In this document: positions 19,886 to 36,575 of the stretch, piece after piece | Position numbering within the stretch: position 1 is the stretch's first letter | How the letters are laid out: each line of letters opens with the position of its first letter | Source: Chloracidobacterium sp. CP2_5A | GTDB taxonomy: Bacteria; Acidobacteriota; Blastocatellia; Chloracidobacteriales; Chloracidobacteriaceae | DNA: 42,579 nucleotides | Assembly (NCBI GenBank): GCA_002254845.1 | Contig: NKPT01000028.1 | Coordinates: forward strand, 1 to 42,579 | Direction of reading: 5' to 3' | Position numbers and translations under genes: made by a program | Notes under the pieces: generated by a model | Told to the model about the DNA's origin: nothing | The model's database searches: none | The model's input: only the letters and a program-made list of their open reading frames with translations

Positions 19886-22021
19886 TCAGGGCTTGACGAC
19901 GAATACAAACTTCTCGCTCGTTGTGTGGAGCGCGGCGTCCAAAACCCTCACCGACACCAGATACTCGCCCGGCGCCAGGTTTTGATAGATTAAGGTAAAA
20001 GTTTCACTTGGCGAATCTAAAACTAAGTCATCAGGATAGATAAGCGCCCAATCCCCGCCGTTGAAAGCGACCTCGACCGACTTGAACGGCGCGGTCGGCG
20101 CGGCGACCTCAACCCGCAGCTTTGACTCTTTCGCGGAAATGACTGAAGGCGAGAAAGTTATCCTTGGAGCAGCATTGGCAATCGTCACTGGCGACGACAC
20201 CTGCGAGACGGTCAGCGCCAAAGCCGCCGGGTTTGACGGGCTATCGCTAACCTCGAGCAAAAACTCATAAACGCCATCGGGCAGCATGTCCGGCGCAATG
20301 ACAAAGAACGGATTGCGCAGCTTTTCGGCGAGCGCCTTCCAGGCCATCTGGCCACGCAGCCGGTACGACAGGCGGTACGTCAGCGCATCGCCGTTTTTAT
20401 CCTCCGCCTGCCACTGAAGCGTTCGCGCGCCGCGCTGAAAGACCTTGCGGGGCGGCTGGTTGGCGATAATGCCAAACTGGAGCGGGTCCAATCCCGAAGT
20501 CATCACGCTCGGATCAGGCGGCGGAACAATCGCCTCCTGCAAGGCCACGCCAACCGGCAACGCGCTGAACGAGGCGATGGCTGGCGGGAGATTTCTGGGC
20601 AAGTAAGCCACGCGCGCGAAAGAAACTTCCGCGCCTTTCCTCAAGCGCAGTCGCCACTGAAGAAAACGCGCCTTGGGGCTTGTAATCACGCCCCCCGGCG
20701 CGGGCATCTCCGCTGACCAGTCGCTCCATAGCGCGCCCGGCGTCTGGGTGTTGCCGGTTCGGGTTTGAATAAAGACATCGCCTTTGCTTTCAACATAGAT
20801 GCGCCCCCAAGTCTCAACAATCGCTTTAGCATCTTGCACGGGCGATGTGAACAGGCCTTCATCCTGCGCCGTCGCGCTCAATCGGTAAAGCTTAGCCAGC
20901 CCGCTGGCGATAATATACAAAACATCGCCGGCCGCGACCTCCGCCGCTGCAATGCGCTCTTCCTCGACGGTTCCAAAAAGCGATGCCTGCCCGTCGGGCG
21001 CGATGAAAAAGAGCCGCCCCTGCCCGCCCATCGCGCTGCTGCCCAAGCCAACCAGAACGCCATCCTGCCAGCGCGTCAGGGCGGTTGCCGTGTCGCCGGA
21101 GGTCCAGATGACGGACTGTCGCCCGTCCGCGCCAAGCCGGTAGAGCGCGGTCCCGCCGGCTGCCGGGCGCAGCAGCGCGGCGCTGCCGCCGCCTTCCCCG
21201 TCGCCGGCTGTCGCCTCGCCCGCGGCCGCCGGCTTGCCCTCGCCCGCCGCCGGCTTGCCCTCGCCAATCCCCAGGGCGAAGACGGTTCCATCCGGGAGCT
21301 GCGCAAGCTGCCGAACTTCACGGGACGGCGCGTCAAACACGGCCGTCGCCTTTTTGTCGGGACCAATGCGAACCACCAGCCCGCTCGGATCCGTGCCGGC
21401 CCAAATCGCCCCGTCCGCCGCCAACATCAAGCTGGTGACGTTGGATTCATCCGTCGCAAAAAGCGACTGCGCGGACGTTGCGCCGCGGGAAAGCGTAAAA
21501 ACCCCGCCCTTCGCCCCAGTGGCATAGACGAGCGCGCCGTCGGGCAGGAAGCGCATGGCCCAGATGTACTTTTCCGGCGGGTCATAGACCGCGCGAAAGC
21601 TCTTGTCGCCGGTTAGCTGGTAAATTTTTCCATCCGGCGAAGTCGCGGCAAAGACGCCGCCCTGCCCGTCGGCGGCGAGCGCCGTCACATCCAGCTCCTC
21701 AAAATCGGCGACCAGCGCGGTTGTCCCATCCGCCGCGACTTTGAAAAGCTTCCCGTCATGGCCTGTGCCAATATAGACATCGCTTCCAACCAGCAGGCTA
21801 CAGAGGGCGAACGGCTGCTGCGTATCGCCAAGCAGCCGCGGCGTCGGCACAACGCGCAGGATGCCATTATCAGACACAGATAACCCAAGCAGGCGCCCGG
21901 ACAGATAATCTTCCTTGCGCGCGGTCTCCCAAAACGCCGTCCCCTCAGCGCGCAGGGGCGTCGTCCACAACCAAGCCAGGGCTACGACCGCCAAGGCGGC
22001 GGCGGGTTTTCGTTTCAGCAT
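19886..22021 (-). CDS. Secreted beta-propeller protein with C-terminal Ig-like domains
   Basis: 711 residues from the ATG at 22021, with AGGAAA about 9 bases upstream. A clear signal peptide (LKRKPAAALAVVALAWLW, cleavage near LRAEG) directs export. Residues about 60-460 hold repeated blade-like units such as DGKLFKVAADGTTALVADF, DGKIYQLTGDKSFRAVYD and GGVFTLSRG, typical of NHL/SMP-30/WD-type propellers. A 42-base Gly-Glu-Lys-Pro-Ala repeat-rich loop interrupts the propeller around residues 254-275. The C-terminal 200 residues resemble fibronectin/Ig-like folds (RTLQWQAEDKNGDALTYRLS; SVEVAFNGGDWALIY). Function unknown. The start overlaps the stop of the upstream lipid A-type acyltransferase by 7 bases, so the two are probably co-translated envelope proteins. 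Confidence 0.85.
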   Translation of the reverse strand: MLKRKPAAALAVVALAWLWTTPLRAEGTAFWETARKEDYLSGRLLGLSVSDNGILRVVPTPRLLGDTQQPFALCSLLVGSDVYIGTGHDGKLFKVAADGTTALVADFEELDVTALAADGQGGVFAATSPDGKIYQLTGDKSFRAVYDPPEKYIWAMRFLPDGALVYATGAKGGVFTLSRGATSAQSLFATDESNVTSLMLAADGAIWAGTDPSGLVVRIGPDKKATAVFDAPSREVRQLAQLPDGTVFALGIGEGKPAAGEGKPAAAGEATAGDGEGGGSAALLRPAAGGTALYRLGADGRQSVIWTSGDTATALTRWQDGVLVGLGSSAMGGQGRLFFIAPDGQASLFGTVEEERIAAAEVAAGDVLYIIASGLAKLYRLSATAQDEGLFTSPVQDAKAIVETWGRIYVESKGDVFIQTRTGNTQTPGALWSDWSAEMPAPGGVITSPKARFLQWRLRLRKGAEVSFARVAYLPRNLPPAIASFSALPVGVALQEAIVPPPDPSVMTSGLDPLQFGIIANQPPRKVFQRGARTLQWQAEDKNGDALTYRLSYRLRGQMAWKALAEKLRNPFFVIAPDMLPDGVYEFLLEVSDSPSNPAALALTVSQVSSPVTIANAAPRITFSPSVISAKESKLRVEVAAPTAPFKSVEVAFNGGDWALIYPDDLVLDSPSETFTLIYQNLAPGEYLVSVRVLDAALHTTSEKFVFVVKP
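21225..21265 (-). repeat. 20-bp direct repeat, period 21, in the propeller gene
   Basis: The two copies (21225-21244 and 21246-21265) are identical over 20 bases and encode GEGKPAA twice in frame, inside a low-complexity loop (GEGKPAAGEGKPAAAGEA). The 21-base period keeps the frame. Confidence 0.8.
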
Positions 22022-23007
22022 GAGTCGTTTCCTAACGTCAGCCGCGTCGAGTTGGCGGCGGAAGCCGGCGGCGACGGCGCGGCTTCCGCCGGCTGACTTT
22101 TCCAGCGGCGGTGAATCCAGAGCCACTGATCCGGGTAGCGCCGCACAATCGCTTCCCACCGCTGCGTCAAGCGGGCCGTATTTTCCTGAATATCAAAGCT
22201 TTCGTCGGCCGTCCGCGCAAGCGGGACCGCCGCCTCGAAAATCAGCCGGTGGCGCGCGCGCGCTGCGTCCCAAACCAGATAGCCGGGAATGACCGCCGCG
22301 CCGGTTCGCCGCGCTAGGCGCGCCACGAGCGGCGAGGTGCAGGCCGGGCGGCCGAAAAACTGACAAAAGACGCCGCGCGGCGGCTGCACGTTGACATCCG
22401 CCAGAATGCCCACCGTTTCCCCGCGGCGCAGGCTGGCAACCAGCGCGCGCAGGTCGCGGTGCTTTGACAGCAGGCGGTTGCCGCTGCGCGAGCGGTAGCG
22501 CGTCACAAGCGCATCCACTAGCGGATTATCAATCGGGCGGACCAGAATCGTCAGCGGATGACCATAGAGCGCGTGGGCGTAGGCGCTCAGCTCCCACGCG
22601 CCAAGATGCCCCGTGAAGAAAATCACGCCGCGCCCCTGCGCGCGCGCCGCCTCAAAATGCTCAAAGCCTTCATACTCGACGAGTTCCGCGATGTTCCCCG
22701 AGTGCAGCTTGGGCAGGTGGGCGAACTCGCCGAGCAGGCGGCCCAAGTTCGCCGCGCAGCCCCAAAACAAGCGTCGCCGCGCGCGCGCCGGGAGATCAGG
22801 AAAGGCCAGGGCTAGATTTTCCATCCCAACGCGCCGCAGGCGCGGCAGCGCCGCCGCCAGCAGCCCGACCAGCGCCACGCCTAGCCATCGCGCGAGCGGG
22901 CGCGACAAGCCGCCCAGCCCGCGCAACAGGGCAGCCACCACAAAGGCTTCAGCTCGCAAGCGAATCGCGGGCGGCGGATTGACAGTCGCCGATTCGGTCG
23001 TTAGCAT
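22015..23007 (-). CDS. Lipid A biosynthesis acyltransferase-like (LpxL/HtrB family)
   Basis: 330 residues from the ATG at 23007. The open frame continues upstream through tRNA-Cys, which rules out the longer form. An N-terminal membrane segment (about 22-57, hydrophobic and Arg-flanked) is followed by GMENLALAFPDLPARAR and the catalytic HxxxxE motif in FTGHLGAWELSAYA (His134, Glu139). RRGETVGILADVNVQPPRGVFCQFFG is also typical. The family transfers acyl chains onto lipid A precursors (late Kdo-dependent steps) or onto other membrane lipids. It supports a diderm envelope, but the specific acceptor is not certain. The stop lies 7 bases inside the propeller gene. Confidence 0.9.
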   Translation of the reverse strand: MLTTESATVNPPPAIRLRAEAFVVAALLRGLGGLSRPLARWLGVALVGLLAAALPRLRRVGMENLALAFPDLPARARRRLFWGCAANLGRLLGEFAHLPKLHSGNIAELVEYEGFEHFEAARAQGRGVIFFTGHLGAWELSAYAHALYGHPLTILVRPIDNPLVDALVTRYRSRSGNRLLSKHRDLRALVASLRRGETVGILADVNVQPPRGVFCQFFGRPACTSPLVARLARRTGAAVIPGYLVWDAARARHRLIFEAAVPLARTADESFDIQENTARLTQRWEAIVRRYPDQWLWIHRRWKSQPAEAAPSPPASAANSTRLTLGNDSC

Positions 23008-23060
23008 CGCTTGCCCAATGCGAGCGACCGCGCCTGGCCGCTCGTCTCGCCGGCGCGCTC

Positions 23061-23135
23061 GGTGGCGTAGCCAAGTGGTAAGGCACGGGTCTGCAAAACC
23101 CTTATTCGTCGGTTCGATTCCGACCGCCACCTCCA
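23061..23135 (+). tRNA. tRNA-Cys, anticodon GCA
   Basis: The 7-bp acceptor stem GGTGGCG (23061-23067) pairs with CGCCACC (23125-23131), followed by T and an encoded CCA. The T arm GTCGG-TTCGATT-CCGAC is perfect. The D arm (GCC/GGC) and anticodon loop CTGCAAA with GCA are in place. The anticodon stem CGGGT/ACCCT has a C27-U43 mismatch at its base, leaving four pairs. The gene lies on the + strand between two oppositely directed gene groups. One copy only in this window. Confidence 0.95.
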
Positions 23136-23555: not shown

Positions 23556-25469
23556 TCACGGCGCGCGGCGAAGGACCTCGCTGGGACTGACCGTGACAAT
23601 TTGCACCCGCCCGTCCATATCGGCGGGCGGCAAAACGACCACCGGCCGCCGGGACGGGCGCTCCGACGCCAGCTCGCTCCCGACCGTCGCCTGGAAGTCG
23701 CGCGCGCGGAGCTTTTCCACAACCGATTTCGGGCCTTCAACCGTCACCTCAACCCGCGTCACGGGAGCGCCGGGCGCGTCCAGGATGACATCTAGCCGGC
23801 GGCGCACAATGATTGGGCGAATCGTCACCTTCACCTCAACTTCCTGCGCGCCGATAATTTCAATCCGGGGATCCTTGACATCCACTTTGTACCGCTCGGC
23901 GAATGAGCGCTCATGAATGTTGAGCCAGATGGTTTCCGTGCTGACGGATTGCAAGGCGTAAACCTGCGCCTCCGGCCCGCGCAGGACGGTTGTTGGCGGA
24001 GACACTTGATACTCCGCGATCTCGCAATCCACAGGCAGCGTCCCGCGAAAGTTCGGGCGGATGTCAACCGAGCGATTGACCTGTCGCTCCAGGCTAAGCG
24101 TCAGCCGAGGCGGCTCGATTTCGAGGATTTCAACGCTAGCGGGCTTTTCGATGCGCGCATCCTCGCGCAGGATAATCACCCGGTCGCCGGAGTTCTTGCC
24201 GTCCAGCGGCACGGTGACGACAAATGACTCCGGGCGCAAGCGCTCCACCACATCGCGCGGGCCGCGCACCCGCAACGTGACCTCCCGCGCCTCATTCCCG
24301 TTGGCAATCACCAGGTCCTCCCGCAGTCCCTGGTAGTTGATCGGCACGCCGCGCATGACAAAAGGAATGGCATCCTGCTTGGTCGCCGAAAGCCAGAGCG
24401 CGCTGGTCATCAGCGCCGCGATGAGCTTGAGGGTAAAGTTCTCGACCACGAGCGCGCGCGCCCTTTTGCTCAGCCAGTCGAGCCAGTGCCGCCCTTGTCG
24501 CCAGGCGGCCGCCAGATCGAGCGCGCCGCGCTCTCTCGCCCGCGCCGCGCGCGCATCGCCGATGAGCGCCGGCGTCCCAGCCGCCGGCGTCTCGCTTGTG
24601 TCACTCAGCGGCTCGGCCGTCACGAAATCCACGCTGGAGCTATCCTCGACCAGCGCCGAGCGCCGCCGCCGCCGCCGCGGCGCGCCTTCAGCGGTCGCGT
24701 TCAGCGCCCGCGACAGCAGCGCGCGAACTTCCCGAACCCCAAGCCCGCGCTTGATTTGACCGCCTTCAACGCACGATACGATCCCCGTCTCCTCGGAGAC
24801 GACAATCACGAAGGCGTCGCTTTCTTCCGTGATGCCAATCGCCGAGCGATGGCGCGTTCCCGTGTCTTTTGAAAGCCGCGGGTTGAGCGTGAGCGGCAAA
24901 AAGCAGCTCGCCGCGGCAATTCGCTCCCGGCGAATGATCACCGCTCCGTCATGCAGCGGCGCTTCCGGGTTGAAAATGTTGACCAGCAGGTCATAGCCGA
25001 CGATGGCGTCGAGCTTGACGCCGCGCGCGATGTACTCATCCAGATTGTCCTGCCGCTCAAACACAATCAAAGCGCCGGTCTTTTTCGCGGAGAAGGTCGT
25101 CACGGCAAGGAGCGCGCTCTCATAGGCCGTCGCGGGCGACTTGGGCGCTCGCCATCCAAAGCGCGCCGGAAGGCGAATGTTGCGGCCAAAGTTCGCGAAA
25201 GCCGCGCGAATTTCGTTTTGAAACAGCACGACGACAGCAAAGCCGACATAGAGCAGGCTGTGGCGAATAACAAACTCCAGGGTTGGCAGGCGCAGCCAGT
25301 GGGAAGCCTGGTAAAGAATCGCCACGACCCCGATTCCAATCGCGATCTGCGCGGCCCGCGTTCCCTTGAGGAGCTTCAACACCTCATAAACGACCAAAAA
25401 CACTAGGATCAAATCAATGGCGATAGCGAGCCAGGATTGACCAAGCCAGTGGATGAGCGTCGTTAGCAC
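23556..25469 (-). CDS. cdaA: Diadenylate cyclase CdaA fused to YbbR-domain CdaR
   Basis: 637 residues from a GTG at 25469. The N-terminal half is CdaA: three membrane helices (about 14-34, 41-56, 72-84), then the DAC domain with DGA at 174-176 (APLHDGAVIIRRERI) and GTRHRSA at 204-210, the ATP-binding motifs that make c-di-AMP from two ATP. A linker of about 80 residues (rich in Arg, Ser and Glu) follows. A further hydrophobic segment (345-361) begins the CdaR part, with about three YbbR repeats (365-637), each with a PRDV- or PKSVVEKL-like turn. In Firmicutes cdaA and cdaR are separate adjacent genes and CdaR regulates CdaA. Here they form one chain, so the sensor is covalently tied to the enzyme. 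c-di-AMP controls potassium and osmotic homeostasis and wall balance. Confidence 0.92.
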   Translation of the reverse strand: MLTTLIHWLGQSWLAIAIDLILVFLVVYEVLKLLKGTRAAQIAIGIGVVAILYQASHWLRLPTLEFVIRHSLLYVGFAVVVLFQNEIRAAFANFGRNIRLPARFGWRAPKSPATAYESALLAVTTFSAKKTGALIVFERQDNLDEYIARGVKLDAIVGYDLLVNIFNPEAPLHDGAVIIRRERIAAASCFLPLTLNPRLSKDTGTRHRSAIGITEESDAFVIVVSEETGIVSCVEGGQIKRGLGVREVRALLSRALNATAEGAPRRRRRRSALVEDSSSVDFVTAEPLSDTSETPAAGTPALIGDARAARARERGALDLAAAWRQGRHWLDWLSKRARALVVENFTLKLIAALMTSALWLSATKQDAIPFVMRGVPINYQGLREDLVIANGNEAREVTLRVRGPRDVVERLRPESFVVTVPLDGKNSGDRVIILREDARIEKPASVEILEIEPPRLTLSLERQVNRSVDIRPNFRGTLPVDCEIAEYQVSPPTTVLRGPEAQVYALQSVSTETIWLNIHERSFAERYKVDVKDPRIEIIGAQEVEVKVTIRPIIVRRRLDVILDAPGAPVTRVEVTVEGPKSVVEKLRARDFQATVGSELASERPSRRPVVVLPPADMDGRVQIVTVSPSEVLRRAP

Positions 25470-25577: not shown

Positions 25578-26876
25578 TCATGCGAGGCGGCCGTCATGCG
25601 CGACAAACTTGACGCTGCGCGCGTACCCGCACACCGCGACGCCGGCCCCAGCATAGTACAGCATATCCGATGCCCAGCGTTCGGGCGAAAGCAGCCAGAA
25701 CATGGACAGGTAAGCCAGCGCTCCGGCTGTCACGAGCGGCCAGTGCAAATGCCTGACTGCCAAAGCATAGGCGACGACGAAGGATAGCCACAAGACATGC
25801 GGCCCGTAGCCCAGCCCTTCAGGGCGGATCGCTTCCAGCCACCACAGCGCGAGATAGCCCATCGCGAGGCCGCGCAGAAAACGTTGGGCATCATAGTAGC
25901 TCGTCCAGTGAAACGGAAACAGCGCGCTGGCCAGAGCCAGCCCAAGCAGCCACGCCTTGGCATCCAGAAAAGCGGCTTGCGCGCCGGGCGGGACAAAGGT
26001 GGCGACCGCCCAGGGATAGCTCGCCGCCAGCCACGCCGGTAGCGCCAAGTCGCGGACAACCTTGGTCAACCGCTGTTGTGGAAGAAGCCAAATGTCCAGC
26101 AAGAGATAGGCAAGGTAGGCCGCCGTCGGCAGCGTGAGCGCCCAGCGTGTCCCGGCGAGCCCGAAGCTCGCCAGCCAAACCCAGAGCGGGATCCACTCAT
26201 ACGAGCGCAGCGCCCAGGCTGGGCGGCTATAAAGCTCGGCGCGCTTCGCGCCAACTTTCAGAGCCGGCAGGAGCCGCCGCTCGATGGACTGCCGAAGCTG
26301 CTCCGTGAGCGCCTGCGCCAGCGCCGACTCGTCCGCGGCAGTCGCGCGCTCAGCGGCGGGCGGTTGGAGCGGCGGATGATACTTGACCGTAATCTTTCGC
26401 GGCAGCGGCAGCCACTGTCCGCGCGGCCAGGCGGCGCGCGCGCCGGCAATCGTCACCGGCACAAGCGGACATTGCGCGGCAATCGCCAGCCGCGCCGCGC
26501 CGGACTTGAGCAGCGCGTTCATGCGCGCCTCCTTGGAAAGCCCGGCTTCGGGAAAAATCCCCAGCGCGTCGCCATCGCGCAACACTTGAAGGGCTTGCAA
26601 GAAGGCTTGTTGATCGCGCCGGGTCGTATCCACGGGAAAAGCCCCGAAGAAGCGAATCAACGAGCCCAACAGGGGTATCGCGAACAGCTTGTCCCAAGCG
26701 ACGAAGCGAATCCGTCGCCGCACGGGCAGCGAGATGAGCGCCGGGTCAAGGTAGCTCGGATGATTTCCGGCCAAAATCACCGCCCCGGTCAAAGGCACGT
26801 TCTCGACGCCAGCGTACTCAAGCGTGAAAGCCACCCGAAAAAGCGCGTGGACAACGAGTTTGAGAACCCAGAGCAA
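25578..26876 (-). CDS. PlsC-like acyltransferase with polytopic C-terminal half
   Basis: 432 residues from a TTG at 26876, with GAGGAG 4 bases upstream and an in-frame TAG just before it, so the N-terminus is well bounded. Residues 1-200 are an LPLAT (1-acyl-glycerol-phosphate acyltransferase) domain: the HxxxxD motif is NHPSYLD (His39, Asp44) and the phosphate-binding motif reads FPEAG rather than FPEG (108-112). The remaining half is a run of six or more hydrophobic segments, such as IPLWVWLASFGLAGTRWAL and AGALAYLSMFWLL, not usual in PlsC. The enzyme would acylate a lysophospholipid or related lipid; the C-terminal part may bind or move lipids. It is 108 bases upstream of cdaA. Two functions may be fused. 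Confidence 0.85.
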   Translation of the reverse strand: MLWVLKLVVHALFRVAFTLEYAGVENVPLTGAVILAGNHPSYLDPALISLPVRRRIRFVAWDKLFAIPLLGSLIRFFGAFPVDTTRRDQQAFLQALQVLRDGDALGIFPEAGLSKEARMNALLKSGAARLAIAAQCPLVPVTIAGARAAWPRGQWLPLPRKITVKYHPPLQPPAAERATAADESALAQALTEQLRQSIERRLLPALKVGAKRAELYSRPAWALRSYEWIPLWVWLASFGLAGTRWALTLPTAAYLAYLLLDIWLLPQQRLTKVVRDLALPAWLAASYPWAVATFVPPGAQAAFLDAKAWLLGLALASALFPFHWTSYYDAQRFLRGLAMGYLALWWLEAIRPEGLGYGPHVLWLSFVVAYALAVRHLHWPLVTAGALAYLSMFWLLSPERWASDMLYYAGAGVAVCGYARSVKFVAHDGRLA

Positions 26877-28420: not shown

Positions 28421-30484
28421 ATGTCGCAGTCCATGGAAACGCTGGCGATTAACACGATTCGAACGCTCTCGATGGACGCCGTCCAAGCGGCTCGCTCGGG
28501 GCATCCAGGCACGCCTATGGCTATGGCCCCGGTGGCTTACACGCTATGGAACGATTTTCTTCGCTTTGACCCCGAAGACCCTATCTGGCCCAACCGCGAC
28601 CGATTTGTGCTCTCGATGGGCCACGCCTCGATGCTGCTTTACTCGATGCTCCACCTGACGGAAACCAAAGCCGTCAACGCCAAGTACGAAACGACCGGCG
28701 CGCCGTCGGTCAGCCTGGACGACATCAAGAAGTTTCGCCAGCTCGACAGCAAGTGCCCCGGACACCCCGAATATCGCTGGACCTCCGGCGTCGAGACGAC
28801 GACCGGGCCGCTTGGGCAAGGCATTGCCACGAGCGTCGGCCTGGCGATCGCCTCGAAATGGCTCGGCAACTACTTCAATCGCCCCGACTTCGAGATGTTT
28901 GACTTCCGCGTCTACGCCCTGTGCGGCGACGGCTGCCTAATGGAAGGCGTTTCGCAAGAAGCTCTGTCGCTGGCCGGCCACCTCAAGCTCTCGAATCTGT
29001 GCTGGATTTACGACAACAACAAGATCACCATCGAGGGCCATACCGACTGGGCGTTTAGCGAGGACGTGGCGACGCGCTTTATCGCCTGCGGCTGGAACGT
29101 CACCCGCGTCGGCGACGCCAACGATACGGCCATGCTCCGCCGCGCGTTCAACACGGCCATCAAGGAGCGCGAGCGCCCGACGCTCATCATCGTGGACAGT
29201 CACATCGCCTGGGGCGCGCCCAACAAGCAGGACACGCACGCGGCGCACGGCGAGCCGCTTGGCGAAGAGGAAATCCGGCTGACCAAGCGCAACTACGGCT
29301 GGCCTGAGGACGAGCGCTTTCTCGTGCCGGACGAAGTTCGGGCGCACTTCCGCGCCGGCATCGGCAAGCGCGGACAGGAGCTCCGCAACGACTGGATGAC
29401 GCGCTTCGCGGCCTACCGGGCGGCTTACCCCAATCTGGCCGACCAGATGCTTAGGGTGCAGAAGCGCGAGCTTCCCCAGGGGTGGGACGCTGAGCTGCCC
29501 ACCTTCCCGCCGGACGCGAAAGGCATCGCCGGACGCGACGCCTCGGCCAAGGTTCTCAATGCCGTCGCCAAAAACTTCCCGTGGCTCATCGGCGGCTCCG
29601 CCGACCTTGCGCCCTCAACCAAAACTCGCCTCGTCTTTGAAGGGGCCGGCGACTTCCTGGCGGAGTCCTACGGCGGGCGCAACTTCCACTTTGGCGTCCG
29701 CGAACACGCCATGAGCGCCATTCTCAATGGGCTGTCGCTCGCCAAGACGCGACCCTACGGCTCCGGCTTCCTCATTTTCTCCGACTACGCGCGCCCGGCC
29801 ATCCGCCTGAGCGCGCTGATGGAGTTGCCGACCATTCACATCTTCACCCACGATTCCATTGGCGTCGGCGAGGATGGCCCCACGCATCAGCCCATCGAGC
29901 AGCTTGCCGGACTGCGCTCGATTCCGGGGCTACACGTGTTTCGCCCGGCGGACGCCAACGAAGTCGTCGAGTGCTGGAAGGTCATCCTGCGCCTCAAGCA
30001 TGAGCCGGCGGCGCTGATTCTGAGTCGCCAGCCGATTCCAACGCTGAATCGTAGCCTTTACGCCAGCGCCGAGCTGGCGCGGTTTGGAGCCTATGTATTG
30101 GCTGACAGCGGCGATACGCCGGAAGTCATCCTGCTGGCGACTGGCTCGGAAGTCGCCTTGTGCGTGGAGGCCTACGAGCGATTGACCGCCGACGGCCACC
30201 GCGCGCGCGTGGTCAGCATGCCGTGCTGGTCGCTGTTTGAGCGCCACAGCGAGGAATACCAAGAATCCGTGATTCCCTCTCAGGCGCGCGCCCGCGTCGC
30301 GGTCGAGCTGGCTTCAACCTTCGGCTGGGGACGCTACGTCACGCATCAGCGCCAAATTATCGGCATGAAAACCTTCGGCGCGAGCGCGCCGCTCAAGGAA
30401 GTCACGAAGAAGTTCGGCTTCACCGTTGAAGCGATTGTGGAAGCTGCCAAGCGCGAAATCGAAGCCTGCAAGCAAGGTCAATGA
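28421..30484 (+). CDS. tkt: Transketolase (first copy of two)
   Basis: 687 residues. The thiamine-diphosphate fold is complete: SGHPGTP with His28, GPLGQGIATSVG, the ThDP/metal motif GDGCLMEGVSQEA ending in [12 protein letters not shown] with the catalytic Glu428, and [18 protein letters not shown]. Transketolase moves two-carbon units between xylulose-5-phosphate and ribose-5-phosphate or erythrose-4-phosphate. AAAGGAA lies 7 bases before the ATG. It is clearly divergent from the second copy: it has a 10-residue insertion near residues 76-92 (TETKAVNAKYETTGAP) and WTSGVETTTG, so the two are not a recent duplication. The 3' end has a tandem repeat across its stop. Confidence 0.95.
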   Translation: MSQSMETLAINTIRTLSMDAVQAARSGHPGTPMAMAPVAYTLWNDFLRFDPEDPIWPNRDRFVLSMGHASMLLYSMLHLTETKAVNAKYETTGAPSVSLDDIKKFRQLDSKCPGHPEYRWTSGVETTTGPLGQGIATSVGLAIASKWLGNYFNRPDFEMFDFRVYALCGDGCLMEGVSQEALSLAGHLKLSNLCWIYDNNKITIEGHTDWAFSEDVATRFIACGWNVTRVGDANDTAMLRRAFNTAIKERERPTLIIVDSHIAWGAPNKQDTHAAHGEPLGEEEIRLTKRNYGWPEDERFLVPDEVRAHFRAGIGKRGQELRNDWMTRFAAYRAAYPNLADQMLRVQKRELPQGWDAELPTFPPDAKGIAGRDASAKVLNAVAKNFPWLIGGSADLAPSTKTRLVFEGAGDFLAESYGGRNFHFGVREHAMSAILNGLSLAKTRPYGSGFLIFSDYARPAIRLSALMELPTIHIFTHDSIGVGEDGPTHQPIEQLAGLRSIPGLHVFRPADANEVVECWKVILRLKHEPAALILSRQPIPTLNRSLYASAELARFGAYVLADSGDTPEVILLATGSEVALCVEAYERLTADGHRARVVSMPCWSLFERHSEEYQESVIPSQARARVAVELASTFGWGRYVTHQRQIIGMKTFGASAPLKEVTKKFGFTVEAIVEAAKREIEACKQGQ

Positions 30485-30744: not shown

Positions 30745-31419
30745 ATGAGAAAAGCGATTTGGCGCGTCTTGCCGCTTGCTTTTTTTCGCCTGCGCCTGGG
30801 CGCAGGATCACGCCATTCGCGTCGCGTCGGAGCTGGCGGCTTTTGAGATCGGCGTTTTTCGCCTCGCGACAAATGCTCCAGCGAGCGGATTTTTGGTCAG
30901 CGAATCTGAAGTTTTTGAAGATGGCCGACGACAAGCGATAAGCGCAGCTTGGTTGGGAAGAAAAGCCGCTCTCGGCTCTGGTCGCGCTTGACACAAGCAA
31001 GACCGAGCGGAAGCAATTTGAAGCCTTGCGCCGGTAACTGCTGGAAGCCGCATTCTATCCGCGGCCGCTCGGTAATATGGCTATTTTAGCCACGGCCGAA
31101 CGAACGGAAAAGATCCGCGACTTTACCCGCGATCGCCAAAAAAATAGCCAAAGCCATACGCGAGCTTGGCGAGCGAAAGCGTGGCGAGGAGGGCATTTTT
31201 CTCCACGACGCCGTCGCCCGCGCCGCCCTTGCCCCGCGCGTCGCGCCAATCCGGCCGGACGGCGCGTCATCCTGGTCGTTTCAGACCTGGTCGTTTCAGA
31301 CAGCTCAGCAACCGCGCAACCTCGGCCGGCTTGACGCGGATGACGCGCAGTCGGCGCTGCCTGCAACCGGCGCGCGGCTGATCCGGCCCAATCGCGGCGC
31401 GCGCCGGCTTGAAGCTTAG
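30745..31419 (+). pseudogene. Decayed VWFA-related (acidobacterial type) secreted protein gene
   Basis: The pieces of one protein are spread over three frames in order. (1) 30745 onward: signal peptide MRKAIWRVLPLA, continuing as FFACAWAQD only after a shift in a run of seven T (30780-30786). (2) QDHAIRVASELAAFEIGVF and EVFEDGRRQAIS, as in the N-terminal part of VWFA-related proteins. (3) Another frame from about 30963: PLSALVALDTSKT (MIDAS-like DTS), interrupted by a TAA at 31035-31037. (4) ILATAERTEKIRDFTRDRQ, then a shift in a run of seven A (31138-31144) to KIAKAIRELGERKRGEEG and FLHDAVARAA. (5) AGRRVILVVSD, with a 15-bp duplication repeating LVVSD, and (6) [18 protein letters not shown] to TAG. 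At least five frame changes and one stop. An intact copy would bind metal through the VWA fold. Confidence 0.8.
31271..31300 (+). repeat. 15-bp perfect tandem duplication inside the pseudogene
   Basis: CCTGGTCGTTTCAGA occurs twice without gap (31271-31285 and 31286-31300). In the relevant frame it repeats the VVSD strand-end motif of the VWA fold, so it arose inside a formerly coding region. Confidence 0.9.
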
Positions 31420-31423
31420 CGGC

Positions 31424-31449
31424 GGGGGTTGTCCAAGGGGGTTGTCCAA
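31424..31449 (+). repeat. 13-bp tandem repeat before the second transketolase
   Basis: GGGGGTTGTCCAA occurs at 31424-31436 and 31437-31449, followed by a partial third copy (GGGGGT). It lies 5 bases after the pseudogene's TAG, in the 163-base spacer leading to the second transketolase; the spacer has no other recognised element. Confidence 0.85.
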
Positions 31450-31582
31450 GGGGGTCGCCAATTCGGTTCGCGCCGCGCTTTTTGCCCTTGCCTTCACTGT
31501 TCAGCGGCGATACAAACACACCGACCGTTCGTTTCATAACGCTCTACAGCAACCCGCTCGCTTCCAGCACCGAATCTTAGCC

Positions 31583-33613
<2,031 letters not shown>

Positions 33614-33740
33614 CGGGCGCTTGCGCGGGGCGCCGGTCCAGCTCGTCGCCAAAACCCCTGTCGTCGCCTATCCAAGAGACAGCCCAAAAAGCCATTCAAC
33701 GCCATCTCAAAAGCTGTTCAACTACCTGGAGCAAGCCTGT

Positions 33741-36575
33741 ATGAATCCTCTTCAAGCGTTACATGAGCAGGGCCAATCGCCGTGGCTGGACTACATTCGG
33801 CGCAGCCTGATTACCAGCGGCGAGCTACAACGCTTCATTGATGAAGACGGCCTTATGGGCGTCACATCAAATCCCGCCATCTTTGAGAAAGCCATCACCG
33901 GCAGCCAGGACTACGCGGCGGCGCTGGCCGCCCTTGAAGCCGAAAACCTTGACGCAAATGCCCTCTATGAGCGGCTGGCCATTGAAGACATTCAAAGCGC
34001 CGCCGATATCCTCAAGTCGGTGTACGACCGGACGCAGGGACGCGACGGTTACGTCAGCCTCGAAGTCTCGCCCTACTTAGCTCAAGATACCAACGGCACC
34101 ATCGCCGAAGCGCGCCGCCTGTGGCAGGCGGTCAACCGCCCCAATTTGATGATCAAGGTGCCAGCGACGCCGGAGGGCCTCCCTGCGATCCAGACGCTCA
34201 TCAGCGAGGGCATCAACGTCAACGTCACCCTGCTCTTCGCGCAGGACGCCTACCGGCAGGTGGCGGAAGCCTACATTGCGGGGCTCGAAGCCTTCGCGGC
34301 CGCCGGCGGGGAGCTGCGCCGCGTCGCCAGCGTCGCCAGCTTTTTCGTCAGCCGGATTGACTCGCTGGTGGATGCCAAGCTCGATGCCAAGCTCAAAGCC
34401 GGGGACGGCGACCCGGCGCTCATCGCCAGCCTCAAGGGCAAAGTCGCGATTGCCAACGCCAAGTTGGCCTACCAGGCCTACAAGAAGCTCTTTTCGGGCG
34501 AGCGATGGGCCAAGCTCGCGGCGGCCGGCGCGCAGACGCAGCGATTGCTCTGGGCCAGCACGGGCACGAAAAACCCGCAGTACAGCGACACGCTCTACGT
34601 TGACGAGCTCATCGGGCCCGACACCGTGAACACGATTCCGCCGGCCACCTGGGAAGCCTTCCGCGACCACGGGCGCGTCCGGCCGACGCTGGAAAGCGAC
34701 CTCGACGCGGCTCATGACACGCTGGAGACGCTCGCCAAGGTCGGGATTTCCCTGAAGGAAGCCACTGACGCCCTGCTCGCGGAAGCCGTCCGGCTCTTTG
34801 CCGAGCCGTTTGACAAGCTGCTCAACTCCCTCGACAAGAAGTGCAAGGCGGTTAACTGGACGCGCCTCAACGCGCAGGAGCTGCACCTTTCGGCCGAGCA
34901 CCGCCGCCTTATGGAGGCCGAACTCGACGACTGGAAAATCAACGGCAAGGCGCGCCGCCTCTGGATGCGCGACGCCAGCGTCTGGACGCGCAGCGATGAA
35001 AGCCAGTGGCTGGGCTGGCTGGGGCTGGTCGAGGATCAGCTCGCCAATCTGCCCGCGCTCATGGCTGCCGCGGAAGATCTGCGGCGGAGCTTCAAGCATG
35101 CCGTCGTGCTGGGCATGGGCGGCTCAAGCCTCTGCCCGGAAGTGCTGCGCATGACGTTTGGCATCCTGACCGACGCGCCGGTTTTGCACGTGCTGGACTC
35201 CACCGACCCGGCGCAGATCAGCGCGCTCGAAGCCCGGCTTGACCTGGAACACACCGTCTTCATCGTGGCGAGCAAGTCTGGCAGCACGCTTGAGCCCAAC
35301 ATCTTTAAGCAGTATTTCTTCGAGCGGATGAAGGGGATCGCGGGGCCGGAGCGGGTCGGCGCGCACTTTGTCGCGATCACCGATCCCGGCTCAAAGCTCG
35401 AAGGCATCGCCAAAGCCGATGGCTTCCGGCACATCTTCGCGGGCGTGCCCAGCGTCGGCGGGCGCTATTCGGCGCTGTCGAATTTCGGCATGGCGCCAGC
35501 GGCGATCATGGGCATTCCCGTGGGCGAGTTCCTTGACGCCGCCGACGACATGGTCAACGCCTGCTCCTACTGCGTGCCGATTGCCGAAAACCCCGGCGTC
35601 GCGCTGGGTTGCGCGCTGGGGGCGCTCGCCAAGGCTGGGCGCGACAAGCTGACGTTCATCGCCTCGCCCAAGCTCTGGGGCCTGGGCGCGTGGATGGAAC
35701 AGCTCATCGCCGAATCCACCGGCAAGCAGGGCAAGGGCATCATTCCCGTGGACTTGGAGTTTCCAACCGATATTTCGGCCTATGGCGATGACCGCGTCTT
35801 CGCCTACCTGCGGCTCGAAGACGACGACAACGACGCCACCGACGCCGCCGTCGCCGCGTTCAAGGACGCGGGCTATCCGGTCATCGTCAATCGGCTAACG
35901 AATGAAATGACGCTGGGACAGGAGTTTTTCCGCTGGGAAATCGCCACGGCGGTCGCCGGCGCGATCTTGGGCATCAACCCCTTCGATCAGCCGGACGTGG
36001 AAGCCAGCAAGGTGGCGACGCGGGAGCTAACGGCCGAATACGAGCGCGCCGGCGCGCTCCCGGCGGAAGCGCCGCTGTTCGAGGCCGACGGGATCCGGCT
36101 CTTCACTGACGCCGCCAACGCCGAGGCGCTTGGCGCGCAGGACAGCTTGGCGAGCTACCTGCGCGCCCACCTGGGACGGCTCGCGGCAGGCGACTACTTT
36201 GCCCTGCTTGCCTACCTCGACATGAACGACCTCAACAAAGCGCATCTCCAAGCGATTCGGCATGCCGTTCGGGAGGAAAAGCGCGTCGCCACCTGCTTGG
36301 GCTTCGGGCCCCGCTTTTTGCACTCAACCGGACAAGCCTACAAGGGCGGGCCGAACACTGGCGTCTTTTTGCAAATCACCTGCGACGACGCGCAGGACCT
36401 GCCCGTGCCGGGCCAGGCTTACACATTCGGCGTCGTCAAGGCGGCGCAAGCGCGGGGCGACTTCCAGGTGCTGGTCGAGCGGCGACGGCGGGCGCTCCGC
36501 ATCCACCTCGGGCCCGACGTGGCGGCCGGGCTGGTCAAGCTGCGCGAAGCTGTCGCTCAGGCGCTAGCCCGCTGA
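33741..36575 (+). CDS. tal-pgi: Fused transaldolase-glucose-6-phosphate isomerase
   Basis: 944 residues. The ATG at 33741 has GGAG 9 bases upstream; the frame is open earlier but overlaps tkt. Residues 1 to about 365 are transaldolase: DGLMGVTSNPAIFEKAI, the Schiff-base Lys139 in LMIKVPATPEG, and SFFVSRIDSLVDAKLDAKL. Residues about 430-944 are a phosphoglucose isomerase: GMGGSSLCPEV (about 458-468), ASKSGSTLEPN, and the C-terminal GFGPRFLHSTGQAYKGGPN. The chain therefore interconverts sedoheptulose-7-phosphate and fructose-6-phosphate, then isomerises the latter to glucose-6-phosphate, closing a cycle with zwf. Tal-Pgi fusions are known in several bacteria. A 12-bp duplication adds DAKL in the Tal part. 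It is followed by a hairpin and gnd. Confidence 0.96.
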   Translation: MNPLQALHEQGQSPWLDYIRRSLITSGELQRFIDEDGLMGVTSNPAIFEKAITGSQDYAAALAALEAENLDANALYERLAIEDIQSAADILKSVYDRTQGRDGYVSLEVSPYLAQDTNGTIAEARRLWQAVNRPNLMIKVPATPEGLPAIQTLISEGINVNVTLLFAQDAYRQVAEAYIAGLEAFAAAGGELRRVASVASFFVSRIDSLVDAKLDAKLKAGDGDPALIASLKGKVAIANAKLAYQAYKKLFSGERWAKLAAAGAQTQRLLWASTGTKNPQYSDTLYVDELIGPDTVNTIPPATWEAFRDHGRVRPTLESDLDAAHDTLETLAKVGISLKEATDALLAEAVRLFAEPFDKLLNSLDKKCKAVNWTRLNAQELHLSAEHRRLMEAELDDWKINGKARRLWMRDASVWTRSDESQWLGWLGLVEDQLANLPALMAAAEDLRRSFKHAVVLGMGGSSLCPEVLRMTFGILTDAPVLHVLDSTDPAQISALEARLDLEHTVFIVASKSGSTLEPNIFKQYFFERMKGIAGPERVGAHFVAITDPGSKLEGIAKADGFRHIFAGVPSVGGRYSALSNFGMAPAAIMGIPVGEFLDAADDMVNACSYCVPIAENPGVALGCALGALAKAGRDKLTFIASPKLWGLGAWMEQLIAESTGKQGKGIIPVDLEFPTDISAYGDDRVFAYLRLEDDDNDATDAAVAAFKDAGYPVIVNRLTNEMTLGQEFFRWEIATAVAGAILGINPFDQPDVEASKVATRELTAEYERAGALPAEAPLFEADGIRLFTDAANAEALGAQDSLASYLRAHLGRLAAGDYFALLAYLDMNDLNKAHLQAIRHAVREEKRVATCLGFGPRFLHSTGQAYKGGPNTGVFLQITCDDAQDLPVPGQAYTFGVVKAAQARGDFQVLVERRRRALRIHLGPDVAAGLVKLREAVAQALAR
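34371..34394 (+). repeat. 12-bp perfect tandem duplication in tal-pgi
   Basis: GATGCCAAGCTC occurs at 34371-34382 and 34383-34394, giving DAKLDAKL in frame in the transaldolase domain. Confidence 0.85.

Follow-up and report, generated by a model that had tools for sequence, protein, structure and literature searches.

A single reading frame joins a predicted CdaA-type diadenylate cyclase to its CdaR partner in the Chloracidobacteriaceae examined

Results

One gene encodes both a cyclase half and a YbbR half

In the window, by which we mean the whole 42,579-nucleotide stretch of Chloracidobacterium sp. CP2_5A DNA that was analysed, the reverse strand carries a GTG-initiated gene at 23556..25469 encoding 637 amino acids, which was identified from its ORF, from Pfam and NCBIfam matches and from orthologues in 10 of 10 examined genomes of the family. 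Its product contains, in order, three membrane helices, a CdaA-type DAC (diadenylate cyclase) domain, a disordered linker, a fourth membrane helix and three YbbR domains. The initial annotation had proposed a CdaA cyclase and its CdaR/YbbR regulator in one chain, and this is borne out by the ORF, by the Pfam DAC and YbbR matches and by NCBIfam TIGR00159. A search of the CP2_5A genome found a single DAC and a single YbbR protein, both of them this ORF, which would therefore have to supply both roles; a control search for DAC detected it in 11 of 14 genomes, E. coli not being one of the 11. Because one ORF encodes the two parts, they should be synthesized at 1:1, as had also been claimed, provided that there is neither processing nor an internal start. 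The gene is flanked in the window by one for a lipid A acyltransferase at 22015-23130 and by one for a PF01553 acyltransferase at 25578-26876.

The structure of the protein was predicted with AlphaFold2 as a monomer, using an alignment of 35 rows (mean pLDDT 79.1, pTM 0.42). Helices were modelled at residues 2-34, 39-59 and 62-82, followed by a confident DAC fold and, later in the chain, by a helix at 345-362 and three confident beta domains; confidence in the membrane helices was modest (blocks of 55-84). All the features described below lie on the reverse strand. The three CdaA-type transmembrane helices, together with the helix after them, occupy residues 2-97 (25179..25466) in the model, with matching hydropathy peaks, and the Pfam CdaA_N model scores just under its cut-off at residues 17-87 (21.4 versus 23.8 bits). 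The DAC domain itself (residues 122-238; 24756..25106) is matched by PF02457 with an E-value of 1.6e-41. Its DGA motif (D174-G175-A176; 24942..24950) is invariant across the 10 fused proteins, and so are G204-R208 and A210 of the GTRHRSA (RHR) motif (residues 204-210; 24840..24860), leaving S209 as the sole letter of the two motifs that varies; both motifs lie exactly where they had been placed initially.

The NCBIfam equivalog TIGR00159, 'diadenylate cyclase CdaA', spans residues 13-251 with 217.6 bits, where its cut-off is 188.8. When the DAC part was searched with Foldseek, all 50 rows listed were diadenylate cyclases, CdaA 8ohf being matched with a TMt of 0.93, and the ten best fold matches were CdaA of B. 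subtilis and S. aureus (0.9-1.9 A over 139-151 columns). These matches and the model suggest that the fused protein is a membrane-bound CdaA-type diadenylate cyclase, presumably catalytically active.

The linker, the fourth helix and the YbbR domains

The DAC domain is followed by a presumably cytoplasmic linker with an Arg-rich start, predicted to be disordered (residues 263-321, pLDDT under 50; 24507..24683). The fourth helix (residues 345-362; 24384..24437), seen in both model and alignment, aligns with the transmembrane segment of separate CdaR proteins. Beyond it Pfam detects three YbbR stretches (E 5.6e-14). Domain 1 covers about residues 366-461 (24087..24374), with a Pfam stretch at 24165-24347 and a beta domain in the model; domain 2, recognized by Pfam and in the model, covers residues 468-549 (23823..24068); domain 3 (Pfam stretch and model; 23574..23762) is the least conserved of the three. 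Searched as a profile, the CdaR part hits six sequences of solved structure, including the YbbR domains 2l3u and 2kpu. The linker, extra membrane segment and roughly three YbbR repeats read from the letters by the initial annotation are thus recovered as the disordered region, helix 345-362 and the three YbbR stretches.

Comparison of the window gene with locus L006 gave dN/dS values of 0.10 for DAC, 0.07 for YbbR1, 0.09 for YbbR2, 0.29 for YbbR3 and 0.48 for the linker, and across the four pairs compared the values for DAC, YbbR1 and YbbR2 were 0.014-0.112. The linker region (residues 256-337) had the highest dN/dS of seven regions in three of the four pairs and was second to YbbR3 in the fourth. 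The DAC domain and the first two YbbR domains are under strong purifying selection, which is weaker on YbbR3 and the linker.

A short stretch, ETP..GTP (residues 292-300; 24570..24596), stands out in the alignment of the 10 fused proteins: T294, P295 and P300 are invariant, and E293, G298 and T299 nearly so. Its conservation in the window and in L006-L014, within an otherwise disordered and fast-evolving linker, may mark a binding or modification site.

The disorder and rapid evolution of the linker would also suit a protein from which CdaR is released, either by cleavage there or from an internal GTG start at residue 280, so that the ORF would also, or mainly, yield free CdaR and the working ratio would not be 1:1. 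At the codon that aligns with residue 280, nine of the ten fused genes have GTG or ATG, and an SD-like stretch accompanies it in five of the ten; of all 321 in-frame ATG/GTG codons in these genes, the ones at this place included, 43 have such a stretch. However, the other five lack such a stretch, one of them (L014) has no start codon there, GAGG is also what Glu-Asp codons spell at that place, and GTG ranks second among the Val codons that these genes use (279 of 720). We regard the internal start as suggestive, not convincing, and production of free CdaR on a scale that upsets the ratio as unlikely; a single chain that keeps both parts at 1:1 is the reading we prefer.

The fusion is present throughout the examined family

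The window comes from a 385-contig assembly, in which two neighbouring genes might have been joined by an assembly error or a frameshift. Unbroken homologous ORFs, 49-89% identical, are nevertheless present in nine other assemblies, and three of the fused genomes (G001, G004 and G005) are 2-contig assemblies. Because of these unbroken homologues an artefact is excluded as far as any such explanation can be, and the CdaA-CdaR join is genuine. The initial annotation had named two findings that would count against it, a frame-joining artefact and a domain search without YbbR; unbroken orthologues and three YbbR stretches were found instead.

Fourteen genomes of the order were searched in total. 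The fusion is full-length and free of stops in 10 of the 10 examined genomes of the family, seven of the same genus and three of other genera, and was found in none of the four examined genomes of the order's other family. In two of the latter (G011 and G013) the cdaA and cdaR parts are two adjacent, separate ORFs; in G012 a separate cdaR lies near a contig edge and is followed by glmM, and in G010 the CdaA half alone was found. In a quickly built tree with 61 CdaA domains, the 10 fused domains fell on one side of one branch (SH-aLRT 99), inside the class Blastocatellia, and since they are so placed a single origin of the 10 fusions would suffice.

Fusions are rare among the CdaA loci surveyed

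A search of genome contigs gave 249 CdaA loci, of which the best 80 were named, and it is through these 80 that phyla beyond Acidobacteriota were sampled. Four of the 80 named loci are fused and 76 are not; all four fused loci belong to genomes already counted (G002, G003, G007 and G008), so they add none to the 10 distinct fused genomes. A separate CdaR-like ORF lies within the examined stretch in 60 of the 76 non-fused loci, a count that rests on a later iteration round of the CdaR profile; with the strict first profile it is 35 of 76, each over 180 amino acids. As the iterated profile also picks up the end of DAC, a fusion was counted only if the CdaR region lay downstream of the CdaA region. 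In the scan of fetched loci made with that profile, this rule retained one gene, that of G143 described below.

DAC was present in 232 of the 297 acidobacterial genomes searched. With the alignment of fused proteins as query, 99 of 119 acidobacterial genomes gave a match, and the full-length, unbroken ones among the matches listed were four members of the family. That full-length criterion missed a divergent fusion in genome G143 (described below), matched at residues 16-265 in a 542-aa frame, and the searched genomes may contain further diverged fusions. Within Acidobacteriota, among the matches listed, the fusion is confined to Chloracidobacteriaceae and this one separate, LysM-bearing case.

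Several candidates were rejected. Apparent fusions in other Blastocatellia, with open frames of about 600 amino acids, have separate ORFs in G033 (L022), G055 (L025) and G036 (L030); these frames evidently read through the stop between two same-frame genes. In G038, G042, G048, G051 and G056 the DAC frames are 283-297 amino acids long, and the 638 frame of G067 consists of two ORFs. Outside the family at least 16 long DAC frames (382 amino acids or more) were seen; in the 14 that were fetched (all but G246 and G253) none had YbbR after DAC, the extra length lying upstream. Nine further long frames came from a search of 396 acidobacterial genomes, and none had a CdaR region after DAC in the ORF.

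A second acidobacterial fusion ends in LysM

Genome G143, from another acidobacterial family, contains a 541-aa ORF with the order CdaA_N, DAC, a transmembrane segment, two YbbR stretches and a C-terminal LysM domain (LysM E 8.4e-15). The gene is a single ORF on the forward strand at 959-2581 of locus L156 (contig C478 of G143; also seen as L157, L180 and L181), downstream of a gene for a SpoU-type rRNA methylase. Like the window's protein it is an acidobacterial cyclase-YbbR fusion; unlike it, it has two YbbR stretches rather than three, it ends in LysM, and its genome also has a separate cdaA and cdaR pair, which overlap by four bases.

A genome of the same genus, G338, encodes an 87% identical YbbR-LysM end that is cut by a contig edge (contig C52; L158/L177), so that the join of DAC to YbbR-LysM is whole in one genome only, G143. 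The YbbR-LysM fusion was not found in G187, the third examined genome of this family, and among the matches listed from the 396 acidobacterial genomes nothing else matched the G143 fusion over its full length without a stop. In a tree of 53 CdaA domains the G143 DAC stood apart from the ten, and a tree grouping it with them was rejected (p-AU 0.003); at 3.5 changes per column, however, its branch is very long, which leaves its placement unsure. The G143 fusion apparently arose separately from that of Chloracidobacteriaceae. LysM commonly binds peptidoglycan, and the LysM tip hints that the YbbR side faces peptidoglycan.

In the genomes tested, the fused genes are unlinked from glmM

In many relatives glmM lies just downstream of cdaA-cdaR. 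GlmM-like ORFs were called with phmmer, accepting E-values up to 1e-5 and using the G012 protein as query. Such an ORF was present in at least 36 of the 76 non-fused named loci, a lower bound set by the 3 kb flank examined, and was found in none of the fused loci, including stretches of 10-11 kb in G001, G007 and G009. The best GlmM match was on another contig in G000, G007 and G009 and 1.24 Mb away in G001, so that glmM was unlinked in all four of the fused genomes in which it was looked for, and these no longer have the classic cdaA-cdaR-glmM arrangement. In G011, where cdaA and cdaR are separate, glmM was also not found within the 10 kb examined, and loss of the linkage therefore need not accompany fusion.

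Several observations concern turnover and sensing of c-di-AMP. A candidate degrading enzyme is a 322-aa DHH-DHHA1 protein, which resembles NrnA although it scores far below that model's cut-off. The 7TMR-HDED domain, which we take to be the mark of PgpH, was not found in any of the four genomes of the genus tested (G000, G001, G004 and G005) and was found in both genomes tested from other genera of the family (G007 and G009), so that members of the family may differ in how they degrade c-di-AMP. A search of G000 for the c-di-AMP riboswitch RF00379 gave no hit.

Discussion

How the fused protein might work

The window's protein most likely does the ordinary job of CdaA and CdaR, with the cyclase inside, the regulator outside and the two held at 1:1. 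Control of c-di-AMP might be altered by the joining, as the initial annotation suggested. More specifically, we think it quite probable that it is a membrane-anchored, single-chain CdaA-type cyclase and CdaR partner in which the YbbR part reads the envelope and biases DAC assembly through helix 4. Starting from the domains, motifs, predicted fold, fixation in the examined family and purifying selection that were seen, we infer topology, catalysis, sensing and helix contact as follows. The predicted topology that fits best has the N-terminus outside, then three helices, the DAC domain and linker inside, helix 4, and the YbbR domains outside; the inside loops of this arrangement contain more basic than acidic residues. 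The three N-terminal helices would hold the DAC domain against the cytoplasmic side of the membrane, and there paired DAC domains would join two ATP molecules into c-di-AMP. The chain would then recross the membrane through the fourth helix and present its YbbR domains, three in number, to the periplasm. This part would most likely read the state of the envelope, and contacts of helix 4 with the CdaA helices would bias the assembly of the DAC domains, as is thought for separate CdaR.

Parts of this scheme have precedents in the sections available to us of two papers. CdaA and CdaR are described as interacting via membrane segments, and AlphaFold predictions for the streptococcal proteins suggested a contact between the first helix of CdaA and the helix of CdaR (PMC10243994). 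CdaA activity is said to need higher oligomers, whose formation GlmM blocks; CdaR has been reported both as an activator and as a repressor of CdaA, depending on condition, and how it controls CdaA is described as remaining unclear (PMC8573169).

The YbbR part might instead only anchor the cyclase or serve as a scaffold for its assembly, without transmitting a signal. No YbbR-domain ligand came up in the present analysis, and 16 of the 76 non-fused named CdaA loci showed no CdaR-like ORF within the examined stretch, one of these (L118) being cut by a contig end. A signal-free scaffold is nevertheless improbable in our view, given that the protein retains three YbbR domains, of which two are under strong selection, and that c-di-AMP rose in S. 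aureus upon an insertion in ybbR, as stated in the available part of PMC11520302. We continue to favour a YbbR part that signals.

Relation to known systems

Every domain of the fused protein is also found in separate CdaA (DacA) and CdaR (YbbR), and the order of the two parts in the protein is the gene order of the cdaA-cdaR-glmM operon; it differs from that operon in forming one chain instead of two and, in the fused genomes tested, in being unlinked from glmM. The joining of CdaA to CdaR is already reported: some streptococcal strains have the two fused (UniProt A5LQF8, E1M7C3 and V8IIN0; PMC10243994). As far as that review's description goes, these are the same two partners in one chain. 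The streptococci belong to another phylum, whereas the 10 fusions here, in Acidobacteriota, fit one origin inside Blastocatellia.

In our literature searches the phrase 'CdaA-CdaR fusion' was not found, and a survey of DACs (Galperin 2023, 'All DACs in a row') may already list the architecture. Chloracidobacterium and c-di-AMP were not found together, and diadenylate cyclase, LysM and YbbR came up together only in a paper on Enterococcus, as judged from the part of its text available.

A fusion kept across the examined family offers a natural single-chain system of fixed stoichiometry for studies of structure and signalling, and the protein with the LysM tip suggests a candidate ligand of the YbbR side. 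A wider reading, possible though doubtful, is that joining occurred at least twice in Acidobacteriota, beside the streptococcal cases, and produced an obligate 1:1 receptor-cyclase that would read peptidoglycan and, here, has been freed from its genomic link to GlmM.

Other fused and repeated genes in the window

On the forward strand at 33510-36575 a single ORF (1021 amino acids from the first start) combines transaldolase (PF00923) and phosphoglucose isomerase (PF00342), and is another enzyme fusion. It is directly preceded by two forward-strand ORFs with full sets of transketolase domains, at 28421-30484 and 31409-33613, about 900 bases apart.
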